Source: an uncultured Flavobacteriaceae bacterium
GTDB lineage: Bacteria > Bacteroidota > Bacteroidia > Flavobacteriales > Flavobacteriaceae
Reading direction: 5' to 3'
Length of the DNA: 64,000 bases
Assembly (NCBI GenBank): GCA_947494695.1
Contig: CANLWB010000011.1
Coordinates: 62,001 to 126,000, forward strand
The position numbers were made by a program, and so were the translations under genes. The notes below the pieces were generated by a model that was not told the DNA's origin, ran no database searches, and saw only the letters and a list, made by a program, of their open reading frames with translations. Shown here piece by piece: positions 56,125 through 60,094 of the stretch. Position 1 is the stretch's first letter, and each line of letters begins with the position of its first letter.

Positions 56125-56196
56125 GCGAAAGTAGCTCAGGGGTAGAGCATCACCTTGCCAAGGTGGGGGTCGCGGGTTCAAATCCCGTCTTTCGCT
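56125..56196 (+). tRNA. tRNA-Gly (anticodon GCC)
   Basis: GCGAAAG/CTTTCGC acceptor stem, anticodon loop TTGCCAA, T-arm GGGTTCAAATCCC. Confidence 0.95.
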
Positions 56197-56244
56197 CTGA
56201 TACTTTCTTAAAATATACCAATTTCGGTTCATATAACCGAAGTA

Positions 56245-56329
56245 AGCTGAAGTGGTGGAATTGGTAGACACGTTGGACTTAAAATCCAATGGCCCTTGGG
56301 CCGTGCGGGTTCAAGTCCCGCCTTCAGTA
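56245..56329 (+). tRNA. tRNA-Leu (anticodon TAA)
   Basis: GCTGAAG/CTTCAGT acceptor, anticodon loop CTTAAAA, long variable arm, GGGTTCAAGTCCC. Confidence 0.95.
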
Positions 56330-56330
56330 C

Positions 56331-56491: not shown

Positions 56492-57181
56492 TCAATAAGA
56501 TTTACATATATATTTCTTAATCATATATTTTGTAATTGGGTTTAGCGATTTTCCTGTTTCTGGATGAAGTCCTAAGTCCGTGAAATATTCTAATTCTTTT
56601 TTATGGTTTTTTCCATACCAAATTTTAACATTACCACTTTCGTTAAAGAATTGCGTGTTACAATCTACCTCTACTTTTCTAAAATATTTAATACGATCTT
56701 CTTTGTATAATTTAAGTTGTTCCACATTGAATTTTTCTGTATCAAATTTCACTTCTATATAGTGGTTATCTTTCCAAACCATCCAGCGTTGTTGATTAAT
56801 CGAAACGATAATAAAAATAACGGCTAATACTATAATACTAATAGAGATTTTGATTTTTTGACTCTGAAAAAAGAACAATATATTGTTTTCCTTTTTATCT
56901 TTTTTTCGGTTGTTTTCAATAAAATCTTCGTAGCTATCATAACCTAAAAAATTACATAAACCAAGAATTACTCCTAATTGTGGAATATTAATGTCTTCAG
57001 TTTTGTTTAGAGCCGATTTATAATATTGACTTAACCTTTTTTCTCCTATAGCTGTTTTTTCATTTGAAATGAACTCCGATATAATTTTTGCCAAACTATG
57101 ATCGGACGGTTTTTTAATTCCTTTTTCCTGTTCCTGTTTTTTGGCTTTTTCAAACGCTTTTACAAGTAATAGATTGTGCAT
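56492..57181 (-). CDS. Hypothetical protein with cytoplasmic N-terminal helical domain, one TM helix and C-terminal domain
   Basis: 229 aa; N-terminal LLLVKAFEKAKKQEQEKGIKKPSDHSLAKIISEFI...LGLCNFLGYDSYEDFIENN, TM ISISIIVLAVIFIIVSI. Confidence 0.75.
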   Translation of the reverse strand: MHNLLLVKAFEKAKKQEQEKGIKKPSDHSLAKIISEFISNEKTAIGEKRLSQYYKSALNKTEDINIPQLGVILGLCNFLGYDSYEDFIENNRKKDKKENNILFFFQSQKIKISISIIVLAVIFIIVSINQQRWMVWKDNHYIEVKFDTEKFNVEQLKLYKEDRIKYFRKVEVDCNTQFFNESGNVKIWYGKNHKKELEYFTDLGLHPETGKSLNPITKYMIKKYICKSY

Positions 57182-57312
57182 TAGTGGGTTGGTTTTTAGT
57201 TGTTTAATGTAGTCGTTTTTTTGGAAAAAGTATTGAAATTATGTCTAAAAAACTTTCTAAAGAACTTCCAATTGTTTTCCACGCTTTTTTTGTTTGTTTT
57301 TATTCATTTGCT

Positions 57313-57511
57313 AAAGAATTGGTAACCGCCTTAGTCGTAATAAGGTTTACGAATATCAATTCTTTTCTAGGGTAAGGGTAAAGTTTAGAACGATCTGGGA
57401 AGTCGTTTTTCAGCTTTATCCTTTCCCAAAAGACTTCCCAAAAGAGAGACGTCTCTTCATTTTTTAGTGTGTTGCCGATAATACAATCTGGTGAAAACCA
57501 GACGGCAACAC
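57313..57511 (+). other. Structured intergenic leader with four inverted-repeat elements
   Basis: Arms: 57313-57321/57357-57365 (AAAGAATTG/CAATTCTTT); 57396-57404/57432-57440 (TGGGAAGTC/GACTTCCCA); 57445-57456 (AGAGACGTCTCT); 57469-57477/57503-57511 (GTGTTGCCG/CGGCAACAC) enclosing TCTGGT-GAAA-ACCAGA. Confidence 0.6.
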
Positions 57512-57539
57512 TATTGTTAAATTTTAATAACCAAATAAA

Positions 57540-57698
57540 ATGAAGAAAATAATTTTAATAGTGTTTACGGTTTTCCTTAATGTGGTGGCTTTTTCATGTT
57601 CACCGCAAAGTTTGTCAAGTGAGGATACAATCCCACAAGCCTGTTGTGGTGAAGATGACCATATACCACCACCGCCACCTGACGGAAATGGAGGTTGA
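57540..57698 (+). CDS. Short (52-aa) secreted peptide/lipoprotein with CC motif and polyproline tail
   Basis: MKKIILIVFTVFLNVVAFSCSPQSLSSEDTIPQACCGEDDHIPPPPPDGNGG*; signal peptide with Cys. Below the length cutoff of the ORF track. Confidence 0.7.
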   Translation: MKKIILIVFTVFLNVVAFSCSPQSLSSEDTIPQACCGEDDHIPPPPPDGNGG

Positions 57699-57729
57699 TT
57701 TATTAAAGACTAATTAATACTTTAGGGGA

Positions 57730-59415
57730 ATGAAAAGACTTACAGTTTCATTCCTCTTTTTTTATTGTCAGCTTGTTAGCATTCTTTTTTTTGCGGTTAG
57801 TCCGGTTAATGGACAAAAGGTAACTGATAGTACAACTTATTATTATAAAATGGTTTTAAGTTCTAAATCCAAAGATTCTTTACTATCAGGATATGTTTTT
57901 TTTAGAAATCGAAAAGAGCAAAACTTAAAGGATAAGGATGAAGGTAAAGCCATTTTCAGTTTAAGAATGATAGTGATAGCGCAAATTGATTTGGGCTTGA
58001 ATCGCGAAGCTGAGTCATCTATTATAGAAGCGCTAAAACTAATAGACAATCAGGAAGCATTAGGCAAGCCTTTAATAAAAGATAAATTGGCGTTATTTAA
58101 TGACTTAGGGATGGTATATAGGACGACGAGAAGATATGATAAGGCTATTGCTATATATAATAAGGCATTGGATATAGCCAAAGAGAAAGGTGCTATTATA
58201 CCATTACATAATAATAAGGGGAGTGTTTATAAGGATCTTGGAAACCATCAGCGAGCAGAAAAAGAATATCTTATAGTATATAGGGAAAGATTAAAAACAG
58301 GAAATAGACAAATGCTTGCAAAGGCATTAGATAATTTGGGATCGGTACAATGGAAGCTAGGAAATGAGAAGGGGGTAGAGAGGATGTTTGAGGCGCTTAA
58401 AATTAGGGTTGAAGACAAAGATGTGGGGTATTATTATACAAGCTATAAGCATTTAACCGAATATTATAAAGATATAGGAAACCTTGAAGAAGCTAAAAAA
58501 TATGCAAACCTGGCCTATGAAGCTGCTAGTTTATATAGGCAGCCCTTCTTGAAAGATGCTTTGCCTCGTTTGCTAGAGCTTAGTGAGGATAAATTAGTTT
58601 TAGAATATGTTAAAATGAACGATAGTCTGACAAAAGAACGGCTTTTAATTGATGAAAAATATTCGAGTGCAAAATATAACCTCGAAAAAGAGCAATTCCG
58701 AACTTTTGAGGCTCAGCTTCAAAAAGAGCGACAAAAGAAGTTAAAATTAATTTATTTATTCTCAGGTTTATTCGTTTTGTTAATGGCCGTTCTACGAATA
58801 GTAATTTTAAGGAACAGGCACAAAAAAGAAAAGGTTAAACAAGTTTATAATACAGAAAGAAGAATTTCTAAAAAAGTTCACGATGAAGTAGCGAATGATA
58901 TGTCCGGTCTTATGAGTTTTGTGGAAAATAACCAGGAATTGCCGGAACACCAGAAAACGATACTATTAAATGCATTAGATGATCTTTATATACGTACCCG
59001 AGATATCTCAACACAAGCAGCGAATATTGATGTTATCAACTTTTCAGAAAGTCTTCGATACCTTTTGATGCAACATAATCGTAACGGCACAAAGATGATA
59101 ACGAATGATATTAACACAATTAGCTGGACTAAAGTGTCTGACTATAAGAAAATGGCTGTTTTTAGATGCATTCAGGAGTTGCTTGTCAATATGAAAAAAC
59201 ACAGTGAAGCTAAGGTTGTAAGTATTGTATTTAAGGAGCATGGCCGAAAAAAAGAAATTTTATATTCAGACGATGGAAAAGGTTTTGCAATAGAAAGAGT
59301 ACAGCTTAATGGGTTGTTAAATGTGGAATCCCGTATTAAAGGGATTAAAGGAAGTATTAATTTTAGAACGTCTGAAGGACACGGTTTTAAAGCTATATTA
59401 AAGTTTAAAGGTTAA
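57730..59415 (+). CDS. TPR-containing sensor histidine kinase (HisKA_3-like)
   Basis: Signal peptide, TPR repeats (ALDNLGSVQWKLGNEKGVERMFEAL), TM helix, KKVHDEVANDMSGL H-box, HATPase ELLVNMKKHSEAK...YSDDGKGFAIE. Confidence 0.92.
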   Translation: MKRLTVSFLFFYCQLVSILFFAVSPVNGQKVTDSTTYYYKMVLSSKSKDSLLSGYVFFRNRKEQNLKDKDEGKAIFSLRMIVIAQIDLGLNREAESSIIEALKLIDNQEALGKPLIKDKLALFNDLGMVYRTTRRYDKAIAIYNKALDIAKEKGAIIPLHNNKGSVYKDLGNHQRAEKEYLIVYRERLKTGNRQMLAKALDNLGSVQWKLGNEKGVERMFEALKIRVEDKDVGYYYTSYKHLTEYYKDIGNLEEAKKYANLAYEAASLYRQPFLKDALPRLLELSEDKLVLEYVKMNDSLTKERLLIDEKYSSAKYNLEKEQFRTFEAQLQKERQKKLKLIYLFSGLFVLLMAVLRIVILRNRHKKEKVKQVYNTERRISKKVHDEVANDMSGLMSFVENNQELPEHQKTILLNALDDLYIRTRDISTQAANIDVINFSESLRYLLMQHNRNGTKMITNDINTISWTKVSDYKKMAVFRCIQELLVNMKKHSEAKVVSIVFKEHGRKKEILYSDDGKGFAIERVQLNGLLNVESRIKGIKGSINFRTSEGHGFKAILKFKG

Positions 59416-59425
59416 TTATTCTACT

Positions 59426-60094
59426 ATGTTTAAAAAGGTTTTAATTGCAGAAGATCAGAATTCAATTCATAAAGGTCTGGAAAACACACTTAAAAATATA
59501 GAAATTAAAGAAGTAGTTACTGTTCAGTATTGTGATGATGCACTCTTAAAAATAAAAGCATCTTTAAAAGCCGAAAGTCCTTTCGATCTTTTGATCACGG
59601 ATTTATCTTTTAAAGAAGATCATCGTGATAGAACATTAAGATCTGGAGAAGAATTAATAACTACGGTTAGAATGATTCAGCCGGAGTTAAAAGTCATTGT
59701 ATTTTCGGTAGAACACCGTATAGGTAAGATTAAAAACTTATTAGAGATTTTTAAGGTAGATGCTTATGTAGAAAAAGGGAGGGAGGAATCTAAAGAAATT
59801 GTAAAAGCGATTCACAATGTGTTGGAAGGAAGGTCATATCATTCACATAGTCTAACCCAATTGCTTCGAAATGCAGATGATATATCTCAAACGGACAAAT
59901 ATGACGAGTTGTTACTGCAATTATTGGCTAAAGGTTTAAAAAGAGATCAAATCGCTTTATATTTTAAAGAAAAAGATTTTCCAGCGGGAAGTTTAAGTAG
60001 TATTGAGAAACGTCTCAATAAACTCAAGGTTCTGTTTGATGCCAATACATCTGAACAATTGGTCGCTATTGCAATAGATAGAGGGTTAATTTAA
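59426..60094 (+). CDS. Response regulator (REC plus degenerate LuxR-like C-terminal domain)
   Basis: VLIAEDQNSIHKGLENTL, LLITDLSF phospho-acceptor, C-terminal SLSSIEKRLNKLKVLF...VAIAIDRGLI. Confidence 0.9.
   Translation: MFKKVLIAEDQNSIHKGLENTLKNIEIKEVVTVQYCDDALLKIKASLKAESPFDLLITDLSFKEDHRDRTLRSGEELITTVRMIQPELKVIVFSVEHRIGKIKNLLEIFKVDAYVEKGREESKEIVKAIHNVLEGRSYHSHSLTQLLRNADDISQTDKYDELLLQLLAKGLKRDQIALYFKEKDFPAGSLSSIEKRLNKLKVLFDANTSEQLVAIAIDRGLI

Follow-up and report, generated by a model that had tools for sequence, protein, structure and literature searches.

Between a divergent gene and a two-component system, a stretch of about 200 nt in the genome of an uncultured Flavobacteriaceae bacterium is filled with inverted repeats, which raises the question of what these repeats are for. 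A first-pass annotation of the 64,000-nt stretch of DNA that we analysed (the window) had listed four of them at 57313-57511 and had put forward three possibilities: a leader RNA that regulates in cis, a small RNA, and operators for a regulator. All four are present at those positions. The 241 nt from 57300 to 57540 have a predicted folding energy of -73.9 kcal/mol, compared with -44.5 ± 4.1 kcal/mol for shuffled sequences (z = -7.2, 0/200); folding of the minus strand is strong too (z = -6.2). The stretch occurs once in its own 5.49-Mb genome. We wondered whether the stems belong to a single RNA, and the comparisons below show that they form one conserved structured RNA, which would be the 5' part of a short transcript.

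The RNA (57313..57527, + strand) is about 210 nt long and comprises six helices and two pseudoknots, both of which had been missed in the first-pass annotation. Two covariance models of it were built, R1 from six sequences and R2 from 25. R2 comprises only helices P1, P1a, P2, P4, P5 and P6; helix P3 and pseudoknot PK1 were deliberately omitted, so the counts for these two are not fitted. RNAalifold alone returned only 20 pairs on alignment A5, probably owing to gaps and pseudoknots, and we therefore counted the named structures instead. Across 65 loci, 58 of the 62 pairs display double-sided changes, and 83.8% of the full structure is paired versus 67.5% in shuffles. This is the strong covariation that a leader RNA had been expected to show in relatives.

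The first repeat corresponds to helix P1 (57313-57321/57357-57365, + strand) with its inner CCTTA/TAAGG stem, P1a (57329-57333/57341-57345). P1 is paired in 88.6% of cells and P1a in 89.5%, with compensatory changes in every pair. The further GTAA/TTAC stem that had been nested here is not conserved across loci and was dropped: TTACG pairs instead with the loop CGTAA, giving PK1 (loop TCGTAA, 57335-57340, with TTACGA, 57347-57352, + strand). About 70% of PK1 cells are paired and five of its six pairs have double-sided changes, the pseudoknot being weak or absent in one subgroup.

The second repeat (57396-57404/57432-57440) was likewise described correctly as to its arms. The CTTTCCC in its loop, proposed as a competitor for the 5' arm, has its main pairing elsewhere: together with the preceding bases it forms the long helix P2 (57370-57383/57414-57427, + strand; 16 modelled pairs, each with compensatory changes, 83-88% paired). 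Because P2 interleaves with it, the second repeat is a pseudoknot (PK2, helix P3), in which the P2 apical loop TGGGAAGTC at 57396-57404 pairs with GACTTCCCA at 57432-57440, immediately 3' of P2 (+ strand, 91.6% paired). Seven of the nine P3 pairs are changed on both sides among the 65 loci, with 43 double-changed cells against 13 after shuffling (0/500). Covariation of the helix is also seen in a second alignment, made from 48 matches: 19 cells are double-changed, versus 4.9 in shuffles (0/500). Most of these matches are loci new to the analysis, and one row matches L146 weakly and in antisense. Shuffle tests of this sort give inflated results with related sequences; a control that keeps relatedness, sliding one arm by a single base, lowers P3 pairing to about 50%. 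An alignment-free search for P3 in new loci was noisy, and aligned counts were used for this reason.

The third repeat is the palindrome AGAGACGTCTCT (57445-57456), contained in hairpin P4 (AAGAGA-GACG-TCTCTT, 57442..57457, + strand). The fourth comprises P5 (57469-57477/57503-57511) joined to hairpin P6 (57487-57502, stem 57487-57492/57497-57502; both + strand), with 77% and 90% of cells paired, respectively, and compensatory changes; the helices stand, while the GAAA tetraloop ascribed to P6 is not conserved. A conserved AAATTTTAA follows at 57519..57527 (+ strand), kept in alignment A5 and located just 5' of a small ORF. An intrinsic terminator, with a GC-rich hairpin and T-run, was considered for the P5-P6 element and rejected: no T-run lies 3' of 57511, and the terminator-like hairpin of this region is found at 57724-57763. 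The neighbouring upstream gene is divergent, so that no plus-strand gene stands directly upstream, and the earlier judgement that a plain terminator is unlikely is borne out.

Could the repeats instead act mainly as DNA, as operators bound by the regulator or by a dimeric protein, their folding as RNA being incidental? P4 does resemble a DNA-style palindrome and the direct repeats upstream of the RNA (see below) are operator-like. However, interleaved helices with two-sided changes across many genera fit an RNA and not protein sites, and the core sequence of the palindrome varies. G-U pairs outnumber A-C mismatches (247 to 179), a modest sign that the plus strand functions as RNA; this strand signal is weak because the order is reversed within P3 (9 G-U, 24 A-C). 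We regard the operator explanation of the repeats as very improbable.

The Rfam comparison suggested at first pass was also made, and no family reached its gathering threshold over the RNA. Searches of part of the window and six loci against Rfam 15 returned nothing at this threshold except two tRNAs, and a search of 17 loci returned no match. The best match, over P1, was RAGATH-9 RNA (RF03146), which at 25 bits and E=0.3 is at chance level (gathering score 75.2) and was discarded. No earlier description of the RNA was found in the open-access library searched, though an earlier mention may exist elsewhere. The RNA is a large and strongly covarying class absent from Rfam and from the open-access papers searched. 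Structured 5' leaders of unknown function are described in Flavobacterium psychrophilum, several of them conserved in other species as well and not represented in Rfam, in the main text of that study (PMC9723704). They share with this RNA the character of a structured 5' element in flavobacteria, and the genes named in that main text are other ones: pheA, hisG, ftsY and others.

When 60 relatives were searched at the DNA level, five genomes had clear homologues (G002, G010, G016, G034 and, as a short exact match, G026), all of which precede the same kind of ORF. R1 matched 66 of 399 genomes of the family and R2 matched 86 of 399, distributed over 71 of 237 genera and mostly with a single copy per genome. 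Matches of the sequences used to build either model arise by construction, including that in the own genome (183 bits, E=9.7e-47); those of the other loci do not. In a class-wide sample of 295 genomes, seven had a match, all from the same family. Within Chryseobacterium the matches upstream of the kinase are weaker, and Myroides-type loci have clearer ones.

The order of the surrounding cassette is fixed: a divergent orphan membrane gene, the RNA, a small exported protein, a histidine kinase with a periplasmic-type TPR region and a probable NarL-type response regulator. The small protein in the window is a 52-residue mini-lipoprotein (57540..57698, + strand) with a CCG-acidic and Pro-rich tail, and has no family match in Pfam or NCBIfam. 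Each of the 66 loci in the first set has, 3' of the RNA, a small ORF with a lipobox-like Cys, as detected with a permissive pattern, and the start of this ORF is usually 9-11 nt past the 3' end of the R1 match. That the RNA keeps its place ahead of a single type of ORF, even where the kinase and regulator do not follow, is as expected of a cis leader and makes a leader the favoured member of the three possibilities first raised. In loci of the Chryseobacterium/Myroides type, the small ORF has a hydrophobic N-terminus and lacks a lipobox; four of them (L178, L190, L191 and L200) encode a non-lipoprotein, exported-looking peptide with a Pro/Lys-rich C-terminus.

The kinase (57730..59415, + strand) is of the NarX/UhpB type and carries a TPR domain found by Pfam, with HATPase_c under its cut-off. 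Two hydrophobic segments, at residues 5-23 and 341-359, flank the TPR region, which is therefore probably periplasmic. A regulator of the NarL/UhpA type combines a receiver domain with a C-terminal LuxR-type HTH; the 222-residue regulator here (59426..60094, + strand) matches Response_reg above the cut-off and the RcsB, NarL and MctR models weakly. The pair is similar in type to NarX/NarL and UhpB/UhpA, and differs from them in its TPR sensor, in an apparently dedicated promoter and in bit scores that fall far below the equivalog cut-offs. The regulator has 478 relatives among public genomes; its identity to its counterparts in several Flavivirga species and in two uncultured Flavobacteriaceae is 77-84%, which makes Flavivirga or a closely related genus the probable source of the window. 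Most of the 66 loci contain both kinase and regulator: the pair is absent from the stretch fetched for six (L066, L069, L074, L092, L095 and L098) and lies upstream instead in L080. Approached from the regulator side, 59 of 80 named regulator loci have a match to the RNA, most at the expected place, and 21 have no detectable RNA, some of these being on short contigs. The isolate YR2-618 genome has a second regulator homologue (L138), at which R2 detected no RNA.

We wondered what an RNA of this kind does in front of a lipoprotein gene. Its size, pseudoknots and conserved sequence recall metabolite-sensing RNAs, and it lies directly 5' of an ORF, as would a double-pseudoknot riboswitch that binds a small molecule and thereby governs whether the lipoprotein unit is translated or terminated early. 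However, it matches no Rfam riboswitch, it accompanies the same signalling genes and not metabolic operons in the loci examined, and no alternative terminator was seen within the leader. Ligand sensing is therefore an improbable explanation, if less so than operators. Sequestration of the start codon gave no clear signal: around this codon 57% is unpaired, versus 41% in the leader, which is a moderate opening only, and so no switch is visible.

The sequences flanking the RNA suggest how it is expressed. A near-consensus -7 promoter box, TTCATTTG (cf. TAnnTTTG), lies at 57303..57310 (+ strand), and in about 50 of 65 loci the TTTG of a TTnATTTG box is found 5' of the RNA at a near-fixed offset. 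The F. psychrophilum TAnnTTTG box is placed at -12 to -5 in the main text of the report cited above (PMC9723704), and this spacing would put the start of transcription at about 57315; a start downstream of 57511, which would have spoken against a leader, is thus unlikely. Further upstream, three direct repeats with 11-bp spacing (TTTCT-N6-CTTCC-N6-TTTCC, 57254..57280, + strand), with a weaker TGTCT copy at 57242, form a candidate operator for the response regulator. Candidate operators thus exist as first proposed, and they lie just upstream of the repeat-rich interval, not inside it. The triple-repeat pattern has a single match in its own genome, and of 25 relatives, 21 had pattern matches, 19 of them only at the cassette (the exceptions are G140 and G330). 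Similar 11-bp-spaced TTTCC-type repeats lie upstream of the RNA in most loci; type-2 loci have TGTC-like repeats instead. From this position and rarity we infer that the neighbouring regulator binds the repeats, though another regulator could use the sites.

At the other end, a terminator-like hairpin with a T-run (57724..57763, + strand) overlaps the start codon of the kinase. In 48 of 58 distinct loci (59 listed, L110 and L111 sharing one sequence), a hairpin with about 9-14 bp and T's on its 3' side spans positions of about -6 to +28 relative to the kinase start, its energy ranging from about -10 to -18 kcal/mol. Where no kinase follows, a terminator-like hairpin is seen by eye 3' of the small ORF, weakly in L066. 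Type-2 loci often lack a terminator at the kinase start. On account of these hairpins, RNA and small ORF together look like a transcription unit of their own; it would be about 440 nt long, with read-through continuing into the kinase. Among the units with no kinase downstream, a palindrome resembling TTACGGAANCCGTAA, though not perfect in every case, occurs just past the terminator region in L069, L080, L092 and L095 and within it in L066.

We think it probable, from comparative sequence data, that the cassette centres on a self-regulated transcript. The response regulator would bind the 11-bp-spaced repeats and activate the promoter, and the main output would be the transcript of about 440 nt with RNA and mini-lipoprotein, which would stop at the kinase-start hairpin. 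Transcription would sometimes continue into the kinase and regulator genes, as positive feedback. The RNA would most likely act in cis: as the leader, its fold would set how well the lipoprotein mRNA is translated or how stable it is, and the exported protein would probably feed back on the periplasmic TPR sensor. The covarying helices, the fixed cassette, the near-unique operator, the offset of the -7 box, the terminator over the kinase start and the placement of the RNA at most of the matched regulator loci all argue for this model; the only moderately open start-codon region, the different repeats and frequent lack of a kinase-start terminator in type-2 loci, and the 21 regulator relatives with no detectable RNA, argue against it.

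In the agr system of Staphylococcus aureus, a histidine kinase and regulator are combined with a small exported product and a structured RNA, RNAIII, which contains a small ORF and is under the regulator's promoter. The cassette resembles agr in having an RNA with a small ORF beside a two-component system; control of the promoter by the regulator, at which the repeats hint, would be a further likeness. It differs in that the RNA lies wholly upstream of the ORF, and in that the ORF encodes a lipoprotein beside a TPR kinase (a non-lipoprotein, exported-looking peptide in Chryseobacterium/Myroides). By analogy the RNA could have a dual function, acting in trans on other mRNAs as the regulator's effector while its transcript encodes the small peptide. 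Because the presumed operator is almost unique to the locus, the transcript may be the regulator's only output; RNA and small ORF also look free-standing and terminated, even without the kinase, and a simple leader would not require so elaborate an RNA. The conserved place directly 5' of the start codon instead suggests a cis role, and the best-conserved stretches are paired and not exposed as seeds. We consider a trans-acting RNA unlikely, though a stronger contender than a riboswitch, and favour the cis-acting, self-regulated leader.

P4 may add a further property. It is a perfect palindrome of half-length at least 5 in 40 of 65 loci, versus about 3% of shuffled segments, with cores that include ACGT, GTAC, GCGC, GGCC and TGCA, and AGCGCT, CGTACG and AATATT in other lineages; many copies are identical, so few of these changes are independent. 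Some loci have ordinary loops (GCAA, GTAA, CTTG), those of L073 and L075 being of the GNRA type. Among 99 P4 loops of 4 nt, 18 are self-complementary and 19 are GACG, and dimerisation is treated as hypothetical because this census is mixed. In retroviruses, RNA dimerisation involves GACG tetraloops and palindromic stem-loops (PMC5874298); P4 is similar in often having a GACG loop or self-complementary core, a likeness limited to the short hairpin. On a speculative and rather doubtful extension, the cassette would be a new flavobacterial signalling module. Its two-component system would sense a peptide and have the double-pseudoknot RNA as its dedicated output, and this RNA, self-associating by way of the palindromic hairpin, would link its dimerisation to the production of a small exported signal protein.

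The RNA adds a class to a bacterial family in which few regulatory RNAs are understood, and the compactness of the cassette (one promoter, RNA, small exported protein and kinase-regulator pair) makes its function testable. Should the exported protein prove to be a ligand for the TPR sensor, this would be a sign that Bacteroidota signal with small proteins or peptides.

The remaining member of the cassette, DIV (56492..57181, - strand), is a 229-residue membrane protein with a helical N-terminal domain, one transmembrane helix and a C-terminal beta domain; in 64 of 66 loci its gene lies divergently to the RNA. It belongs to no Pfam or NCBIfam family, and its predicted fold (AF2 pLDDT 92) has no PDB match at E<=0.001. 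The DIV family displays a conserved C-terminal W and GLHPETGKTLKPIT-like motifs. Beyond DIV, about 1.0-1.2 kb upstream of the RNA, the window encodes tRNA-Gly(GCC) at 56125-56197 and tRNA-Leu(TAA) at 56246-56330.
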